The notes under the pieces are model-generated. The model was given only the letters and a program-made list of their open reading frames with translations. It ran no database searches and was not told where the DNA came from. Shown one piece after another: positions 5,773-15,398 of a stretch of DNA of 15,398 nt. This DNA comes from Candidatus Abyssobacteria bacterium SURF_5 (GTDB lineage Bacteria; Abyssobacteria; SURF-5): assembly GCA_003598085.1 (NCBI GenBank), contig QZKU01000050.1, positions 1-15,398 of the forward strand. Direction: 5' to 3'. The position numbers were made by a program, and so were the translations under genes. Each line of letters starts with the position of its first letter. Position 1 is the stretch's first letter.

Positions 5773-5878
5773 GGAATAACTTCTGATTTGTGAAAGTCAG
5801 TTTTGGCGAGAAATTATTCCCGCAGTGCACGGATGAAAAGACACTGTTTTCTACACACCAAAAGGAGGATATTCTGAA

Positions 5879-5891: not shown

Positions 5892-8800
5892 ATGTTGAAC
5901 ATGAGATTGCGTCGCGAATTCCTGTTTCTCGCAGTATTCATTCTCTCGATCAACTATTCCGCCTATTCTCACTCTTCTCACATTGAAGGCCGCTCCGGCC
6001 CGAGATGGCCCAAGAATCTGCTGTGGTCGGCATCGACACATGCAAGAACCGCCGCGCCAACTCGGACGCTTCATGATGTTGAATTTCAGAGAGATGGTCT
6101 GAGCGTCCTGTTAACCGATTCCAGCATCGCAGATCAAGATTTGCTGAAATTGTCGGATGTGCACGTCGCGTTTCTCTCCGGATGGGCGCCAACATCGACA
6201 CCCGGAAAGGGACGTGAATGGAATAAAGTCAGACGCGCCTTCTACAGAGAAAATGCGGGGGCGTTTGGAATCGAGCATCTCATCGATTACGACCCGAAGC
6301 AAGAGCGCATCTCAACTTTTCGAATAATAGAAGTCCTGCGAACGCAATCTCACGGTGAAGCATTCTCCGTCCGCGTATCGGGCGAATCAAGGCCGGTTTC
6401 CGTTATCGAGCCTGTTGAGATCGAACGGAATCTTCTTTCAACTCATGGCGATGCCGCGAGAATAGTGTCCTGCATTCTCTATTGGCCGGCTTCCGAGCCT
6501 CTCTGGCGCATTCGAATCATGGATGAGACCGGCTATGACTATGTGGTAAAAGCCGCCACTGGCGACCTGATTTCGATGGCCAAGGACCCCGATATCACGC
6601 CAGCTTCGCCGGTTGCGCAGCCGGGGCGTGAAACCCTCTCACCAAAGCGCCCGCCAACCAATTTGCCCAATTTGCGACAGCAGGACCTATTTGAGGACCG
6701 AAGCGCTTTTCTGATCAACGTGCCCAATGAACTGTCGCCCATGGATATGAATGTCCCTGCCGCGGTTGCAGCCGCCTGCCACATATACTCCGCGAAGCCC
6801 GTCATCCTTTTCACCGACTCCATTTTTGATTGCGAGGAGCACGAGTGGTTTCTGGAGGATTATGCGCCGGGACAGATATTTGCCGTCGGATGTTATGTTG
6901 ATCCTTCAAGTGTGGCCTGCCCTGTAATCTCTGTTCAGGGAGAACCGCCGAGCGAAGTCGCCGCGAACCTTGCATACCTTGGCTGGAGCGCCAGCTCTTC
7001 CGCCGTCCTCACGGACTCTGAAGATTACAAGGCGGCTCTTTGCGCGCCTCCCCTGTGCAAGCGGCTTCAGGCGCCCCTGTTGTACTTTGAAGGGGAAAAT
7101 CTTCCCCAGATCACATCAGACTGCCTCTCCGCACTCGGTGCGGAAGACGTGTTTGTCATAGGAAACTGCCCTCCGACGGTCCTGAACGCTCTTATCGCCC
7201 TGGGTTGCACGGTGGAAATCTTGCCTGACGCCGGTTCGGTTGCGGAGAAAATGGAGGAGGAAGGACAAGTTGTTGACTATGTCGCCATGACGAATCCATC
7301 GGACCGGAACGGAGGCCTGGTCCCAAAGCTGTCCTTATTATCCTGTGTATTGGCCGCGCATCGAAACGGTGTTGTGTTGCCGCTCGAGTATGACGCCGTG
7401 TGGAAACAGCCCTATTACTGCACCGACACAACAACAACTCAACCCGACGGCGCCGTCGTTGGCCAAAAGTCGCTTTACGCGTGGTGGATCACCAGTACGC
7501 CTCCGACGCTGGAGCCGGGTTTCGTTCCCGAGTTCCATCCGGTTAACGGGCAGTACGGGTATGGGAATGTCCTCGGATGGGGCCGCAATCCGTTCTGCCT
7601 CGGCGCTTCCACTGACACAGCCTCGCTCTATGATCTGGCGCTGATCGACCTCGATGATAATAAGGTTTATGGTCCCGGCGAGCTGTTCTCGTCGGCGGAG
7701 TACTTTTCTTTTTATACTCCGCAGGTCGGAGAACGCACCTACCGGATTGACACCATTGGCGGATCGGAAAAATGGTGGGAAGACAGAGGCTACATGCTCG
7801 TCTCATTCCTCACGTGGAAGACCGGGACCGCCCAAATCGAGGGGATGGATTATCCATTTCTCTTGACATCGTTAGGGTTTGGCCAGGCGCTTGGATATTA
7901 TGACGTCGTCCAAATCGATTCGAACAGGGACGGCGATTTCGGCGATGCGGGTGAAGAACCCCGTTTTTCCGGAGAGCCCGTGACGGTTGGATCGCTTCAA
8001 TACGCTCCCACTATTGGAGTGGAGGATTACAAGACCGCGGGAGATCTCAAGCTTACCTATCCGTCTAAGGAAGAGATTTCGCAGAGTCTCTCTGATTTCT
8101 ACAGCGATCATCTCGACCATCCGCCGGAGTATCTGGCCATTGTCGGCTATCACACGGCGCTCCCGTTCGGGATCACGTACTGCGCATACGAAGGGACGGA
8201 AGATCTCCCGACAGATTACTACTACGGAGACTATGACGACGATCCGTTTGTTGACTTGGGAATAGGAAGAATCATCGGAGAGAACCACCGGTACGCTTCA
8301 GGAGCGGTCGCGCGAAGCGTTGCGTATGACGACATTTTTGATCCGGCGAACGCCTGCGTGCTCAGCATCGATCGGGGGCTGGGATTCGGCAACGAGGCCA
8401 TCCGCCAGATGGGGAACGTCGGATACACCGGCGCCGTATGCCGCGATCCCATCGACGTATGGTCGGATGACCAAATGGAGAACAAGACCGCCATTCTCCA
8501 CGATAATCATGCCGGAAGCTATGGATGGGTAGGCGGGCCGGTATGCACATTTCACAATCGATTGTCTCCGTGCGTGGCTGCGTCGGCGGGATGCAGCACC
8601 GCCAGCCTCGACTTTACTTCGCCCGTTTATTCGATCATAAACAGGTTTTTCCAGTGCGGCGCAATTTGCTACGCGGGGAATACTCGGAACGCCTCCAATC
8701 CCGGCTATTCCTATCATAGTATGTTCTGGGCTGCATTGAGCGCAGATGCACCTCTTGGCAAGGCGAATCTTGCCGCGCTCAACCATCAGCGATACATCTG

Positions 8801-10799
8801 CCTGGAAGAGGGAGATGCTCCTACTGCCTCTCAGGTCGCTTGCTATGAGGCTGTCATGTTTGGAGACCCTGCCGTCCGGCTGGCTTTTCTTCAACCGCCC
8901 GCTGTGGCGGCAGCGCGTATGGAGAAATCGATGGCTGGCGATGAGGCCTACTATATCGGGCCGGGCGAATGGTGGGAGGACAGCATTGAGGCACAATATC
9001 AATACTCAGCGCCCGGCGTTTACTTTGTCAATGACCCCATGTATCTCTACCATTTTGCCAATGTTCCAATCCCCTATCAGACGGAATTGGAAAGCGTTGT
9101 GCAACTGACTTCCTTGCCGTCTCCTCTTGGATGGACCGGGTACTATTTTGTGGATCAGCAGGCTGATGGAGAGGACGCGGTCCTGTGGCGCATTCGGGTC
9201 AAGGACTACAATCGGACAACGGGGGAAATATATTCAGAGACTGACTATGTCGAGTATCTCCTGAATATAACAAGCGAATTCCCCAGGACTCTCTATGTTG
9301 ACGCCGTCAGCCCATGTCCCGGCATCGGAAGCGAGGCGAATCCCTACTGCAACATCCAGACGGCCATCAATAATTCGCTTGACGGCGACACGATCATTGT
9401 GCGCGACGGCGCCTACACCGGCGCAAGCAACAAGAATCTCGACTTTTCGGGAAAAGCGATAACTCTTCGCTCCGAAAACGGCCCGGAGAATTGCATTATC
9501 AACTGCGAGGGCGACGGGAGAGGGTTTTATTTCCACACGTATGAAGGCCCGGCTTCCGTCGTCAAGGGGTTCACGGTCCGAAACGGGTACGCGTCAGGAT
9601 CGTATCCCACAAATTCGGGGGGCGCGATCCTGTGCGTCTCCGCCTCGCCCACTCTTGAGAACCTTATCCTGATCGATAACACCGCCACAACAGGCGGCGG
9701 AATTTTTTGTGTCGAGGGCTCATCCCCGGCGATCAGGAACAGCCGGCTATCCGGAAATTACGGAGACTTCGGCGGAGCGATCCGGTGCATGTATTCGTCC
9801 AGCCCCACTCTCTACAACTGCGAAGTAACCGCCAATTCCGCCTATTCGCACGGCGGAGGAATCTCGTGCGAGATAGAATCCTCCCCCATCATTACGGCCT
9901 GCAATATCAGCAATAACTGGCTCACGTTTTCCGGGGGATATGGCGGCGGATTGGATTGCTACTACTATTCATCGCCGACGCTCACCAACTGTACGATCGC
10001 CGGCAACTCGGCCAATAAGGGGGGCGGGATCCGTACGCAGTATTATTCTTCTCCAAGAATTAGATATTGTTCCTTCTCCAACAATTCCGCTGAATGGGGC
10101 GGGGGAATCGGATGTTACTACAATTGTTCAGTCACCATTGAAAATTGCGTCCTTTGGAATGATTCCGCTGTCAATGGACCGGAAATAGCAATCTTCTCCA
10201 CCACTGATCCCTCCCTGGTGTCTGTCGCCAACAGCGACGTCAAGGGTGGACAACCGGCCGTCTATCTCGAATCCGGCTGCACCCTCGACTGGGGCGCCGG
10301 CAACATCGACGCCGATCCGCTGTTTGCCGGCGGAGGCGACTATCATCTCACTGGAACCTCTCCGTGCATCGATGCCGGGACCGACGCGGGAGTCTATGAC
10401 GACATCGACGGAGACTTGCGTCCGCGCGGCGCGGGCTTCGATATCGGCGCGGACGAGTATTACGAGGTCAGCATGAAACTCGAGCCCGATGCCGCCACGG
10501 TCGAGCGCGGCGGAACGCTCGGCTACGATGTGACGCTGACCAACCACACCGCGACAACGCTGACATTCAAGTATCTCACGAATGTGACTCTGCCGAACGG
10601 GAGTCCGTATCCGCCATCGGGCGCGTTACTCGGGCCGAAGACCATTATGCTCGCTCCCTACGCCAGCCGCTCGGCGCATTTGACGCATCTGATTCCGATG
10701 AGCACGCCGCTCGGTACATACACCTACAACGCCTATATCGGAGTTGCTCCACCCACTCCGATGAACGAGCGGCACTTCGATTTCGAGGTGGCGCCATAA
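5892..10799 (+). CDS. large exported C25/gingipain-like cysteine peptidase with cell-wall-binding-like repeats and C-terminal right-handed beta-helix
   Basis: This gene encodes 1635 residues. A signal peptide occupies about 1-28. Residues about 199-231 resemble a PepSY-type strand-turn (LWRIRIMDETG, then AATGDL). Residues about 270-477 contain segments like cell-wall-binding repeat 2 (AKPVILFTDS with IFAVG; APLLYF with DVFVIGN). A calcium-loop-like DSNRDGDFGD lies near 676. Residues about 710-1000 resemble the C25 peptidase fold: PEYLAIVG, then DYYYGDYDDDPFVDLGIGRI. Candidate catalytic residues are H873 (DNHAGS, where gingipains have GHG) and C901 (SAGCSTA), followed by GDPAVRL. Residues about 1132-1524 are a right-handed beta-helix of coils such as SPTLTNCTIAGNSA-x-x-GGGI, ending in the DADPLF and FDIGADEY hallmark. 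An Ig-like tail (1525-1635) ends NERHFDFEVAP. The beta-helix and tail recur in the next gene. Peptidase activity is inferred; substrate and attachment are unknown. Confidence 0.85.
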   Translation: MLNMRLRREFLFLAVFILSINYSAYSHSSHIEGRSGPRWPKNLLWSASTHARTAAPTRTLHDVEFQRDGLSVLLTDSSIADQDLLKLSDVHVAFLSGWAPTSTPGKGREWNKVRRAFYRENAGAFGIEHLIDYDPKQERISTFRIIEVLRTQSHGEAFSVRVSGESRPVSVIEPVEIERNLLSTHGDAARIVSCILYWPASEPLWRIRIMDETGYDYVVKAATGDLISMAKDPDITPASPVAQPGRETLSPKRPPTNLPNLRQQDLFEDRSAFLINVPNELSPMDMNVPAAVAAACHIYSAKPVILFTDSIFDCEEHEWFLEDYAPGQIFAVGCYVDPSSVACPVISVQGEPPSEVAANLAYLGWSASSSAVLTDSEDYKAALCAPPLCKRLQAPLLYFEGENLPQITSDCLSALGAEDVFVIGNCPPTVLNALIALGCTVEILPDAGSVAEKMEEEGQVVDYVAMTNPSDRNGGLVPKLSLLSCVLAAHRNGVVLPLEYDAVWKQPYYCTDTTTTQPDGAVVGQKSLYAWWITSTPPTLEPGFVPEFHPVNGQYGYGNVLGWGRNPFCLGASTDTASLYDLALIDLDDNKVYGPGELFSSAEYFSFYTPQVGERTYRIDTIGGSEKWWEDRGYMLVSFLTWKTGTAQIEGMDYPFLLTSLGFGQALGYYDVVQIDSNRDGDFGDAGEEPRFSGEPVTVGSLQYAPTIGVEDYKTAGDLKLTYPSKEEISQSLSDFYSDHLDHPPEYLAIVGYHTALPFGITYCAYEGTEDLPTDYYYGDYDDDPFVDLGIGRIIGENHRYASGAVARSVAYDDIFDPANACVLSIDRGLGFGNEAIRQMGNVGYTGAVCRDPIDVWSDDQMENKTAILHDNHAGSYGWVGGPVCTFHNRLSPCVAASAGCSTASLDFTSPVYSIINRFFQCGAICYAGNTRNASNPGYSYHSMFWAALSADAPLGKANLAALNHQRYICLEEGDAPTASQVACYEAVMFGDPAVRLAFLQPPAVAAARMEKSMAGDEAYYIGPGEWWEDSIEAQYQYSAPGVYFVNDPMYLYHFANVPIPYQTELESVVQLTSLPSPLGWTGYYFVDQQADGEDAVLWRIRVKDYNRTTGEIYSETDYVEYLLNITSEFPRTLYVDAVSPCPGIGSEANPYCNIQTAINNSLDGDTIIVRDGAYTGASNKNLDFSGKAITLRSENGPENCIINCEGDGRGFYFHTYEGPASVVKGFTVRNGYASGSYPTNSGGAILCVSASPTLENLILIDNTATTGGGIFCVEGSSPAIRNSRLSGNYGDFGGAIRCMYSSSPTLYNCEVTANSAYSHGGGISCEIESSPIITACNISNNWLTFSGGYGGGLDCYYYSSPTLTNCTIAGNSANKGGGIRTQYYSSPRIRYCSFSNNSAEWGGGIGCYYNCSVTIENCVLWNDSAVNGPEIAIFSTTDPSLVSVANSDVKGGQPAVYLESGCTLDWGAGNIDADPLFAGGGDYHLTGTSPCIDAGTDAGVYDDIDGDLRPRGAGFDIGADEYYEVSMKLEPDAATVERGGTLGYDVTLTNHTATTLTFKYLTNVTLPNGSPYPPSGALLGPKTIMLAPYASRSAHLTHLIPMSTPLGTYTYNAYIGVAPPTPMNERHFDFEVAP
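10764..10795 (+). repeat. 32-bp exact repeat, copy 1 (3' end of the C25 gene)
   Basis: The bases encoding NERHFDFEVAP, up to the last full-match base before the stop, are identical to 12274-12305. The codons just upstream differ, and the stop codons differ too (TAA here, TAG there). Confidence 0.9.
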
Positions 10800-10848
10800 A
10801 GGCAGTTTAATTATTATGGCAAAGCCTTCAACCAGAAGGAGGAGCAAC

Positions 10849-12309
10849 ATGAAGAGGCTGTATGTGCCAGTTCTCTTGGCGCTGGCTGCCGCCATAAGCG
10901 CCGCGTCTCCAGGTTCTGCGGACACCTACTATGTGCCGGACGACTTCGTGACAATCCAGGCGGCGCTTGATGCGGCGGCAAACGGTGATGAAATCATCGT
11001 GCGGGACGGCACTCATGCAGGCACAGATCTGACTTTCGCAGGCAAGGCTTTGACGTTGCGTTCAGAGAATGGACCTTCGGCCTGCATTATCGAAGGGGCG
11101 GAGAGCGGTTGGGTTTTTCGGTTCGGCAACGAATCTTCCGATTCGATACTTGATGGATTCACTATAACCCATGGCCCCGCTGGCGGGATAGTCTGCATGT
11201 CCTATTCCTCGCTTGCGATCACCAACTGCATCGTTACCGGGAATGGGGGCGAGATGGCCGGCTTCGGCGGCGGAATTTACTGCAGCTATTCCGATCCGAC
11301 AATCACAAACTGTGTCATTACCGATAATTCGCTCGGGGCTTTCGGCGACGGGGGCGGTATCATGTGTTGGAGCGCATCTCCAACCATCGCCAATTGCGTC
11401 ATCAGCGGCAATTCGGTCGGCTACATGGGTGCAGGCGGGGGCATCCACTGTTACTATTATTCTTCTCCGGTAATAACCAACTGCACAATCACCGGCAATT
11501 CAGCAACGGACAACGGCGGCGGCGGCGGGATTTACAGTATGAACTCCACGCCCGTGATTACCAATTGCACAATCAGCGGCAATTCTTCGCATTTTGCTGG
11601 AGGAGGACTTCATTTTGAAGGAGCGGCCGGCTTGGAGACGCTCATCAACTGCATTGTATGGGGGAATGAAACGGCTCTGGATGTTGGAAATGAAATCTAT
11701 ATTGGAACGTACGGCCATGTCCTCACCGTCGGTTCTACCGATGTAAGAGACCGACTCGGTTTCGATGACGTATATGTCGATCCTCTCGCCATATTGAATT
11801 GGCTGGAAGGCAACATCAACGCCGATCCACTATTTGTGGGTGCCGGCGACTTCCATCTCACAGCCGGCTCGCCGTGTGTCGATTCGGGGGCGGCTGCCGC
11901 AATCGATGACGATATCGATGGCGATCCGAGGCCGCGCGGGGCCGGCTTCGACATGGGATCCGACGAATTCTATGAAGTCAGCATGCGACTTGTTCCCGAT
12001 GCGGATGAAGCATCAAGAGGCGGTTCACTTGGATATGATGTGACGGTCACGAATCACACTGATGTCGTGCAGACATTCGAGTACTGGACCATGGTTCGAT
12101 TGCCTAACGGTTCGATGTATCCCCCATCGGGTGCGCTCTTCGGGCCGCACACAGTGAATCTTCCTCCCTTCGCGAGCGGATCAGCGCACCTGTCGCATGC
12201 AATTCCAGTGATCGCACCTTTGGGGATGTATACTTACAATGCATATATCGGGCCGAATCCGCCGTTGCCGACAAACGAGCGGCACTTCGATTTCGAGGTG
12301 GCGCCGTAG
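10849..12309 (+). CDS. exported right-handed beta-helix protein
   Basis: This gene encodes 486 residues. AGGAGG (10837-10842) with a 6-nt spacer sets ATG 10849; an upstream in-frame ATG (10816) lacks a site. A signal peptide covers about 1-24, with an alanine-rich core and PGSA before DTYYVPDDF. Residues 25 to about 370 form a right-handed parallel beta-helix: an IQAALDAAANGDEIIVRDG opener, then coils of about 25-30 residues built on ITNCTITGNSA and GGGI, closed by NINADPLF, SPCVDSG and DGDPRPRGAGFDMGSDE. Residues about 374-486 are an Ig-like tail ending NERHFDFEVAP. The whole mature protein aligns with the last 500 residues of the C25 protein, only 49 nt upstream, so the two are probably co-transcribed. 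No catalytic residues of polysaccharide lyases are evident. An adhesive or scaffold role is plausible but not shown. Confidence 0.9.
   Translation: MKRLYVPVLLALAAAISAASPGSADTYYVPDDFVTIQAALDAAANGDEIIVRDGTHAGTDLTFAGKALTLRSENGPSACIIEGAESGWVFRFGNESSDSILDGFTITHGPAGGIVCMSYSSLAITNCIVTGNGGEMAGFGGGIYCSYSDPTITNCVITDNSLGAFGDGGGIMCWSASPTIANCVISGNSVGYMGAGGGIHCYYYSSPVITNCTITGNSATDNGGGGGIYSMNSTPVITNCTISGNSSHFAGGGLHFEGAAGLETLINCIVWGNETALDVGNEIYIGTYGHVLTVGSTDVRDRLGFDDVYVDPLAILNWLEGNINADPLFVGAGDFHLTAGSPCVDSGAAAAIDDDIDGDPRPRGAGFDMGSDEFYEVSMRLVPDADEASRGGSLGYDVTVTNHTDVVQTFEYWTMVRLPNGSMYPPSGALFGPHTVNLPPFASGSAHLSHAIPVIAPLGMYTYNAYIGPNPPLPTNERHFDFEVAP
12274..12305 (+). repeat. 32-bp exact repeat, copy 2 (3' end of the beta-helix gene)
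   Basis: Identical to 10764-10795; see that entry. It encodes NERHFDFEVAP. Confidence 0.9.
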
Positions 12310-12380
12310 TTTGGTAGATTCGCAAAATAAGGTCCATGCGCCATGCGGGAGCACGGCGGCGTCACAGTGGTTCTTTCCAA

Positions 12381-12404
12381 TGAAAAATTATTTTTCAGTG
12401 AAAA
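12381..12404. promoter_or_regulatory. three-arm inverted repeat upstream of the LVIVD gene
   Basis: TGAAAAA (12381-12387) pairs with TTTTTCA (12391-12397) across a TTA loop. The same middle arm also pairs with TGAAAA (12399-12404) across one G. The arms can form alternative hairpins in RNA or a repeated operator in DNA. The site is 42 nt upstream of ATG 12446. No clear promoter boxes could be fitted around it. Confidence 0.35.
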
Positions 12405-12445
12405 GATACGGGAGAAAAAAAGGTGCCAATGAAGGGAGAATATGC

Positions 12446-14641
12446 ATGAGTAAGAGATTCAGGCTTGTTTTGGCTACCCATTTCGTGCTTCTTTGCCTTT
12501 TTTGCAACAACTCTATAGCGCATGCGGCCTGCGAGCCGCACTTCACGCCTATCGTCGGCACGCTGAGTGTCGAAAGCGTGAATGGTCTGGCGGTCTCTGG
12601 AGATTATGCCTATTTAACCACATGGTATGGGCTAACAATTGTGGATGTCTCGACTCCTGCAAGCCCTGTCCAGGCCTCTTCACTTGAAGGGATCGGCTCA
12701 TGTTACGGCGTTGCCGTATCGGGATCATACGCATATCTCGCGTCAGAAAGCTATGGACTTTTTATTGTTGATGTCTCGAATCCGGAAGCACCGGTGCTGG
12801 CGGGATCGCTAGCCACTCCGGCGTATCAAGTCGCGGTCTCAGGGGCGTATGCATATGTTGTAGGCAGCGCCTGGTTGCAGGTGGTGGATGTATCGAATCC
12901 GGCGTCTCCCGTAATCGTGGGCTCGGCGGATCTGCCGGATTGGCCAAATGATGTGGCTGTCTCCGGTTCATATGCTTACGTAGCCGTCGGTCTGACAGGG
13001 CTCTGCATCCTCGATGTGTCTGCACCGGCGTCACCATCCATCGTTGGCTCGATCGACACGCTTCACCTGGCCTCCGGTGTGGCCATTGATGATTCCTATG
13101 TTTACGTTGCCGATGGATATGCCGGCCTCGTGATCATCGATGTTTCTCTTCCTGCGGTTCCTTTCATAGCCGGGACGGTAGCCGCAGGGCTGCCGTTCGA
13201 CACGGCGACGGATGTGGCTGTTAATGGAGACATTGCCTTCGTCACGTCATATTACGCAGGTCTTCAGATTGTGGACATTACCTCACCTGTCGAATCATTT
13301 GTTATCGGATCCGCACCCGTACAAAGCAGCTTTCCCGCCTCCTATGTCGCCTGGGACGGCGATTACGCGTACGTAGTCGCTTACGGATACGAAGAAAATT
13401 TCCTGGTCGTCGATGTCTCGGACCCCCTTTCTCCTCATATGATCAGCTACCATTCCACTTTGGGACCGGCCTATGGGATCGATGTGTCCGGAAACTACGC
13501 GTATGTTGCGGAGGAATGGGAAGGGGTTGAGATACTCGACATCAGCGACCCCGCCGCGCCTGAAATAGTTGGGGGCGTGGATACTCCGGGCCGCGCGACA
13601 GAGCTGATAGTATCCGGCAATTTTGCTTACGTTGCCGACGGATGGGGAGGCGGTCTGCAGGTTTTGGATGTTACGAATCCATCCACGCCCCACATAGAGG
13701 GTTCGGTTGCGACCCCCGGTTTGGCGGTGGATATCGCCCTTTCAGGGAACTATGCATATGTGGCCGATTCCACGAGTCTCCTGGTTGTCGATGTTTCGAG
13801 CCCGCAGTCGCCGTTCATTGCCGGTTCACTCGATATTTCCGCGCTGCGGGTCGCGGCATCGGGTTCGTATGTCTATGTTGTTGGCAGCCCCACGGGATTG
13901 AGAGTAGTGGATTGCAGCAATCCTGCCGCGCCCGTTGTCGCAGGAATGGTAGAGTTAAGCGGTCCGCGCGACGTGGAGGTGCAGGGTTCGTATGTCTATG
14001 TCGCCGCCGAGGAAACAGGAAATTTCGGCGTGCACGTTGTAGATGTATCCAATCCGTCGGCGCCTTATATCGTTGGATGGGTTGGTGCACAGGGTGAAAT
14101 CCACAAAATCGAACTGGCGGATTCCTGCGCCTATATCGCGGGAAATAGTTATACTTATTCTCCGTTCCTCCAGGTCATAGAGATATCCGATCCCGCCTTT
14201 CCCATTTCACTCGGTTCTTTCAGTAACGGAATTACTTCCTACGATGTCGCAGTCTCCGCATCTCACGCCTATCTCGCGCATTATGCATTCGGCATCAGCG
14301 TGGTTCAATTGTGCCCCGAGCTCTTCAGGATAAACCTCGAGGCGCCCGCAGACCTGGCAGTGTTATCGCAACCGCCCACTTTCTCCTGGACCGCCAGCGG
14401 CGGAACAAATAATGCATTCGCGGTTGATGTCAGCGCTTCAGCCGGATTCACAAAATATTGGTCCACATACGAGAACCTGCACCAGATCATCACCGAAACA
14501 AGTTGGGCCATGTCGCCCGCCGTCTGGGACATGATTCCCGCCGGCGCAAGACTATATTGGCGCGTGCGCGGGGCGGACCTGGACGTTGCGCCGCTCGATA
14601 TCATCACCAGCGACGAGGTCTGGTCGTTCACAAAAGAATGA
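12446..14641 (+). CDS. exported LVIVD-repeat (beta-propeller) protein with C-terminal Ig-like module
   Basis: This gene encodes 731 residues. ATG 12446 follows AAGGGAG (12432-12438) with a 7-nt spacer and opens a signal peptide (about 1-31, MSKRFRL then a hydrophobic core ending IAHA). The frame is open further upstream, but only as overlap with the preceding gene. Residues about 39-625 hold fourteen LVIVD repeats of about 40 residues, with consensus D-V-A-V-S-G-S-Y-A-Y-V-A-x-x-x-x-G-L and then VVDVSNPxxPxIxGS. Fourteen equals two seven-bladed propellers. LVIVD repeats are found in bacterial and archaeal surface proteins. Residues about 626-731 are the same Ig/Fn3-like module as in the S8 protease (KYWSTYENLH, YWR-x-RGAD, IITSD). 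It may be a surface or matrix protein; whether the shared module lets it bind the same partner as the protease is inference. Confidence 0.92.
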   Translation: MSKRFRLVLATHFVLLCLFCNNSIAHAACEPHFTPIVGTLSVESVNGLAVSGDYAYLTTWYGLTIVDVSTPASPVQASSLEGIGSCYGVAVSGSYAYLASESYGLFIVDVSNPEAPVLAGSLATPAYQVAVSGAYAYVVGSAWLQVVDVSNPASPVIVGSADLPDWPNDVAVSGSYAYVAVGLTGLCILDVSAPASPSIVGSIDTLHLASGVAIDDSYVYVADGYAGLVIIDVSLPAVPFIAGTVAAGLPFDTATDVAVNGDIAFVTSYYAGLQIVDITSPVESFVIGSAPVQSSFPASYVAWDGDYAYVVAYGYEENFLVVDVSDPLSPHMISYHSTLGPAYGIDVSGNYAYVAEEWEGVEILDISDPAAPEIVGGVDTPGRATELIVSGNFAYVADGWGGGLQVLDVTNPSTPHIEGSVATPGLAVDIALSGNYAYVADSTSLLVVDVSSPQSPFIAGSLDISALRVAASGSYVYVVGSPTGLRVVDCSNPAAPVVAGMVELSGPRDVEVQGSYVYVAAEETGNFGVHVVDVSNPSAPYIVGWVGAQGEIHKIELADSCAYIAGNSYTYSPFLQVIEISDPAFPISLGSFSNGITSYDVAVSASHAYLAHYAFGISVVQLCPELFRINLEAPADLAVLSQPPTFSWTASGGTNNAFAVDVSASAGFTKYWSTYENLHQIITETSWAMSPAVWDMIPAGARLYWRVRGADLDVAPLDIITSDEVWSFTKE

Positions 14642-14920: not shown

Positions 14921-15009
14921 ACGGGAGAATTTTGCTTCACAGACGGCGGCATAACTGAATCGTTCAAAAAGGTGGGAGGAAAAAAACAATGACATCGAGA
15001 AAGCTGTTA
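14921..15009 (+). repeat. duplicated 5' leader, copy B
   Basis: Homologue of 2742-2829. The core TTTTGCTT and AGACGGCGGCATA is at 14930-14953. GGGAGG (14974-14979) gives the ribosome binding site for ATG 14989, and the match ends within the signal peptide codons. Here the leader is attached to a real LVIVD gene. Confidence 0.7.
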
Positions 15010-15398
15010 GTGCTAACTTTTCTATCGGTAGTAACGGTTATAGTTTATTCACATGAAGCTTTTGCACACGATCCATGCGATATCAGATTTCCTCCTATCG
15101 TCGGTTCTGTCGATGTATCTTATGCTTCAGACGTTGCTGTCTCCGGCTCGTATGCCTATATTGCGGATGGGGCAGTCGGATTGCGAATAGTCGATGTCAC
15201 TGACCCCACTTCGCCTTTTGTTGCCGGTTCGATCGATACCCCCGGTTACGCACAAAGCGTTGCGGTCTCGGGTTCATATGCGTACATCGCCGATGGTTCT
15301 GACTCATTTTGGACACTTTGGGCTTGGGTTTGGTCAAAAATCTGCAAAAACCCCTTATTTTTTGGGGGTTCGATTTTCCGGAAGTCGAAATGTAGTGC
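14989..15398 (+). CDS. second exported LVIVD-repeat protein, interrupted or incomplete
   Basis: ATG 14989 follows GGGAGG (14974-14979) with a 9-nt spacer. A signal peptide covers about 1-26 (MTSRKLL, hydrophobic core, EAFA). One complete LVIVD repeat follows (SDVAVSGSYAYIADG, then LRIVDVTDPTSP), then the start of a second (SVAVSGSYAYIADG) that breaks off at about 15299. From there the frame stays open to the window edge but encodes residues unlike LVIVD (rich in W, K and F), where a GL-x-VVDVSNP strand should come. The intact part resembles the repeats at 12446-14641. The gene is either disrupted by an insertion at about 15300 or the sequence there is a junction artefact. The true C-terminus is not in the window. 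Confidence 0.75.
   Translation, partial: MTSRKLLVLTFLSVVTVIVYSHEAFAHDPCDIRFPPIVGSVDVSYASDVAVSGSYAYIADGAVGLRIVDVTDPTSPFVAGSIDTPGYAQSVAVSGSYAYIADGSDSFWTLWAWVWSKICKNPLFFGGSIFRKSKCS
15300..15398. other. unrelated AT-rich sequence breaking the LVIVD gene, possible mobile-element end
   Basis: At 15300 the repeat pattern stops within one codon and the sequence becomes AT-rich and homopolymer-rich. It starts TGACTCATTTTGGACACT, a TG start followed by a TTTTGGACACTT-like motif that recalls the ends of some IS21-type elements (from memory, unverified). AACCCC and GGGGTT (about 15348-15370) form a hairpin around a T-rich loop. No transposase frame is visible in the 99 bases available. Confidence 0.4.

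Follow-up and report, generated by a model that had tools for sequence, protein, structure and literature searches.

The gingipains RgpA, RgpB and Kgp (family C25, PF01364) are exported multidomain proteins in which a catalytic region with a His/Cys dyad is followed by a beta-rich domain, haemagglutinin domains and a type IX C-terminal domain (CTD). The catalytic triad of Kgp consists of C477, H444 and D388 (PMC6426963). The Firmicutes CWB2 proteins (Cwp6, Cwp8, SlpA and Cwp66; PF04122) are known for a different module: in C. difficile, three CWB2 repeats with the PILL motif are required for anchoring to the polymer PSII (PMC4973711). The gene product described here resembles the gingipains in its catalytic region, in the region of the His/Cys dyad, in the beta-rich domain after it and in being an exported multidomain protein, but it carries a CWB2-like region in front, has (N/S/A)H(A/S) where the gingipains have GHG, and ends in a beta-helix in place of the haemagglutinin domains and CTD. 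With the Firmicutes CWB2 proteins it shares profile-level homology and PILL-like motifs in two repeats, but its region falls below the Pfam cut-off, has two rather than three recognisable repeats and is fused to a C25 peptidase. Residues 1133–1528 are those of a typical right-handed beta-helix/choice-of-anchor Q exported protein, except for the fusion to a peptidase. The nearest counterparts are proteins of Planctomycetota (loci L041–L051 and L098–L115), which have the same domain order, fall in the same clade and keep the invariant H873 and C901, but are mostly 680–890 residues long and have neither the N-terminal region nor the beta-helix.

The window, that is, the whole 15,398-nucleotide stretch of Candidatus Abyssobacteria bacterium SURF_5 DNA that was analysed, contains the gene on the plus strand, to which all coordinates below refer. 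It is a single unbroken frame of 1635 residues running from the ATG at 5892 to the stop at 10799, with an AGGAGG ribosome-binding site 5' of the ATG; the opposite strand of the same interval has many stops. Starting from the in-frame GTG at 5790 would put 34 further residues before the signal-like stretch; this start has no signal peptide at its beginning and is the poorer choice. From the ATG, residues 1–26 (5892..5969) form a putative Sec signal peptide, basic and then hydrophobic and ending in SAYS, from which Sec export of the protein is predicted. The sequence-only reading had proposed that CWB2-like segments, a C25-like peptidase and a beta-helix occur in one exported protein. This was borne out by the single frame and by matches to PF01364 and PF13229 above their cut-offs.

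The C25 catalytic region spans residues 724–1000 (8061..8891). PF01364 matched it at 57.6 bits against a cut-off of 23 (E = 1.6e-15), over residues 724–814 and roughly 889–997, so the proposed C25 similarity was confirmed by profile search. The same family was above cut-off in all 12 members of alignment A1, and the window genome contains one C25 protein. A C25-only profile (A2) matched Lys-gingipain at E = 1.4e-4 with C901 placed on C477, and hhalign against 30 ordinary planctomycete C25 domains gave 98% probability and E = 9.5e-14; in that alignment C901 falls on the Cys of these domains and H873 on the His of GHG. The region is followed by a beta-rich C-terminal domain of the subfamily (residues 1000–1125; 8889..9266) that is kept in the relatives and may be Ig-like. 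AlphaFold2, run without an alignment, gave pLDDT values of 33 and 30 for residues 260–1140 and 720–1000, respectively.

The candidate catalytic residues had been placed at H873 in DNHAGS and C901 in AGCSTA, and these positions (8508..8510 and 8592..8594) proved right. In a set of 26 members, made up of loci from across Planctomycetota and the window genome, both were invariant, as were G900, D907, D775, D782, D784, R793, G923, A924, G929, R932, N964, D992 and P993. The exact GHG motif, which is usual in C25 but not required, the His being its catalytic part, is absent: the family has (N/S/A/E/D)H(A/S), in which the His is kept, and the glycine after the His is Ala in the window protein. Since HMMER paired H444 of Kgp with H870, which lies three residues from H873, H870 was considered as the catalytic His, a choice that MAFFT also gave. 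It was rejected, because H870 is not invariant among the 26 members and is replaced by Tyr in L115 (YFNHSGPGTW), while H873 is always present. Ordinary C25 proteins have Y at position −3 from the GHG His (NYTGHGAVERW), matching the Tyr of L115, and a W lies six residues past H873 in the window protein (NHAGSYGW), likewise in L115, as in GHGxxxxW. The Tyr in L115, the invariance of H873 and the spacing of the W together identify H873 as the counterpart of the GHG His. C901 (in AGCSTASLD) aligns with both Kgp C477 and the Cys of ordinary C25 proteins.

We considered the possibility that the caspase-like domain is kept as a non-catalytic binding or scaffold module, a degenerate state that the sequence-only reading had also allowed for. 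NHA stands in place of GHG, and no clear third catalytic acid was found: among the members there is no invariant acid at the position aligned with Kgp D388, and D827 of the window protein is a weak candidate for which the relatives mostly have Glu one position on. Furthermore, the window protein lacks W829, which 25 of the 26 members have, and it sits on a long C25 branch. However, if the enzyme were dead, its active-site residues should have been lost in some lineages, and H873, C901, the G900 that precedes the Cys and the D907 that follows it are invariant in all 26. This makes degeneration unlikely, and the window protein is probably an active cysteine protease, as predicted from these conserved residues.

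In front of the catalytic region lies the CWB2-like region (approximately residues 268–450; 6693..7241). The PF04122 profile itself reached only 14.0 bits against a cut-off of 24.9 (E = 0.08, residues 357–424), and a search with it across the genome gave no match. In contrast to the PF04122 score, phmmer aligned this stretch with Cwp6 in its CWB2 region (E = 8.7e-6), and family profiles matched Cwp6 at 5.7e-18 and 3.3e-20. A profile of the CWB2-like region alone, compared with the PDB, matched Cwp6 at 3.3e-20, Cwp8 at 1.4e-13 and SlpA at 3e-6; other S-layer proteins were weaker than 3e-6. When such a profile was built without the window row, it recovered window residues 269–508 at E = 1e-43, with none of 200 shuffles matching, and it had no match to ordinary C25 proteins. 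We use the name CWB2-like, rather than CWB2, because the region is below the PF04122 cut-off and yet has profile homology to Cwp6 and Cwp8.

Only two repeats are recognisable. Each contains one PILL-like motif, PVIL (residues 303–306) and PLLY (residues 395–398), and the two align to each other weakly. The third segment has no such motif and gave no alignment to repeat 1 or 2. Residues 455–510 could by eye plausibly be the start of C25 instead of a third CWB2 repeat, but profile comparison gave no support for this. The proposal of CWB2 repeats before the peptidase was therefore upheld by the Cwp6 profile match, but not as a full set of three. Because three repeats are required in C. difficile, the PSII-anchoring function should not be transferred to this protein, and PSII is not expected to be its ligand.

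A similarity of this kind could also reflect a generic Rossmann-like resemblance instead of common descent with CWB2. The sub-threshold PF04122 score and the presence of only about two repeats are consistent with such a resemblance, as are the PRPP synthetase and SDR chains found lower in the match list of the PDB comparison. In that list, however, the best eight chains are all CWB2 proteins, headed by the Cwp6 and Cwp8 matches given above, and unrelated folds appear at 0.03; PF04122 was also weakly matched by 8 of 12 subfamily members, the best at 8.4e-5. We regard a merely generic resemblance as quite unlikely. Judged from these profile comparisons, the similarity to CWB2 is real, though remote.

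The distribution of the combination was determined by whole-genome searches covering Planctomycetota and the window's own phylum, which comprises three genomes including that of the window. The other two genomes of the phylum had no C25 and no relative. Residues 1–1141 were matched in 16 of 392 Planctomycetota genomes, 12 of which gave relatives of the CWB2-like-C25 subfamily; one of these (G148) contributed no more than a fragment, located at the end of a contig. The remaining four had weak matches, and the three inspected were ordinary C25 proteins with GHG intact. The eleven near-complete relatives match the CWB2-like and C25 parts within one open reading frame and are co-linear, in the order signal peptide, CWB2-like region, C25 and C-terminal domain. 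In one class, a profile search found matches in 28 of 154 genomes, more than 20 of them clearly belonging to the subfamily. Ordinary C25 proteins are common (PF01364 matches in 187 of the 392 genomes), making the CWB2-like-C25 form a minority type.

Profiles made from the relatives without the window row matched the window protein at E values of about 1e-42 to 1e-44, with none of 200 shuffles matching. In a tree with 30 ordinary C25 domains, the 12 CWB2-like-C25 domains, the window's included, form one clade with 100/100 support. The position of the window protein inside the clade is less sure, given the length of its branch (1.74). Two longer, divergent members, L114 (1214 residues) and L115 (1133 residues), have other N- and C-terminal extensions; their genomes also contain the short form. 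The gene neighbourhoods have nothing common to all members, and no full relative was found on viral contigs or plasmids. We found no name or description for the combination of CWB2-like and C25 regions in the open-access literature. By these sequence comparisons, it is a recurrent, monophyletic subfamily. The suggestion that the architecture is new thus holds in part: the CWB2-like-C25 core recurs, whereas the N-terminal region and the beta-helix tail were unseen in the other genomes and, within the genomes searched, look specific to the window lineage.

The N-terminal region (residues 27–267; 5970..6692) has no detectable family and is single copy in the genome; a Pfam search with residues 27–240 gave no match. 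It is perhaps a propeptide. Between the CWB2-like and C25 regions lies a linker or insert (residues 451–723; 7242..8060), of which residues 463–510 are kept in the relatives in alignment A1. It contains DxNxDG-type loops (DSNRDGDFGDAGE), a motif by which it may possibly bind calcium. Calcium-binding-like DxDxN/DxNxDG...E loops at residues 583–598 and 672–690 (7638–7961) are partly kept in the relatives.

The beta-helix and choice-of-anchor Q segment occupies residues 1133–1528 (9288..10475), matching PF13229 (Beta_helix) at 64.2 bits against a cut-off of 25.9 (E = 1.4e-17) and NF041518 at residues 1484–1523. The helix was also matched in a planctomycete. It is followed by a C-terminal domain of 111 residues (10464..10796), which in this genome is carried by five proteins, including the C25 protein and the product of the next gene. 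Two large proteins with YD/RHS-like N-termini (L089 and L090), which end in this domain, are among the five. As had been noticed from the sequence, the helix exists as a separate adjacent gene: a stand-alone gene (10816..12309) lies 16 bp downstream, and its product, which shares both the helix and the C-terminal domain, is 56% identical to residues 1268–1635 of the C25 protein. Sequences resembling the helix and C-terminal region also occur on around a dozen further contigs of the genome. Because the next gene has the module and the relatives do not, the C25 protein probably gained it by local module shuffling, from its neighbour or from a paralog. The longest stretch of DNA that the gene shares exactly with other parts of the window measures 32 bp and lies at the 3' end of the gene, and nine loci with other paralogs yielded no exact match of at least 16 bp. 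An assembly join at the boundary between C25 and the helix is therefore unlikely.

The shared C-terminal domain bears on whether the protein might act as a sortase- or transpeptidase-like C25 enzyme that processes other surface proteins, such as the carriers of the 111-residue domain, in the manner of PorU in type IX secretion. PorU is a relative of C25, and NF052324, a PorU-related N-terminus, weakly matched two members of the subfamily. However, this match was marginal (E = 0.004), the carriers number only five, and the genome's single C25 protein itself bears the domain it would process. Furthermore, the C25 protein had no match to a type IX CTD family, and its NCBIfam matches up to E = 1 included no T9SS sorting domain. 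We consider such a role very unlikely.

Several other genes of the window, all on the plus strand, were noted as well. At 508–1371 and 1819–2658 are neighbouring, paralog-like exported proteins of about 280 residues, which share the motif IPxxITxSGMEV behind the signal and a terminal VLLESATVGGVSYP or similar sequence. Pfam gave no more than a sub-threshold DUF3108-like match for the first of them and nothing for the second. The gene immediately upstream of the C25 gene (2890–5721) encodes an S8 subtilase in which delta-60/SBBP-like repeats come after a fervidolysin-like propeptide. The middle of this protein and the C-terminus of an LVIVD protein (12239–14641) have in common a segment, GFxKYWSTYENLHxxIxETxW...YWRxRGAD..., which is another shuffled module. 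The listed start of the latter gene overlaps the previous gene; the more probable start lies near 12446 (MSKRFRLVLATHFVLLC) and gives a signal peptide. A further LVIVD protein (14989–15396) runs off the contig; its last approximately 30 residues look unlike the repeats, perhaps due to a contig-end error.

The gene product is likely to be a clan CD cysteine peptidase (family C25) that is exported and falls in a subfamily with a CWB2-like region before the catalytic domain. The order of its domains, its homology, the monophyly of the subfamily and the conserved H873 and C901 can be read from the sequences. Mechanistically, C901 would attack the peptide bond with H873 acting as base, and the N-terminal region might act as a propeptide. 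The CWB2-like region might dock to a glycan, or fold against the enzyme as a regulatory module, while the beta-helix and C-terminal domain might tether the enzyme to the cell surface or to a polysaccharide. More tentatively, the distinct C25 subfamily of Planctomycetota and the window's small phylum could be one in which a CWB2-derived module regulates or targets the peptidase, in glycan-gated or wall-tethered proteolysis and not in S-layer anchoring, with the window lineage adding the beta-helix for surface or polysaccharide binding.

The window protein varies a known type of enzyme and does not represent a novel class of system. The C25 subfamily that it helps to define is recurrent: in it, a module known from Firmicutes for wall anchoring stands in front of a gingipain-type protease and the variation of GHG is conserved. 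The protein comes from a genome in which a standard beta-helix module is attached to exported proteins of unrelated kinds. For the subfamily, Cys-dependent activity would be predicted, together with a function of the CWB2-like region that differs from PSII anchoring.
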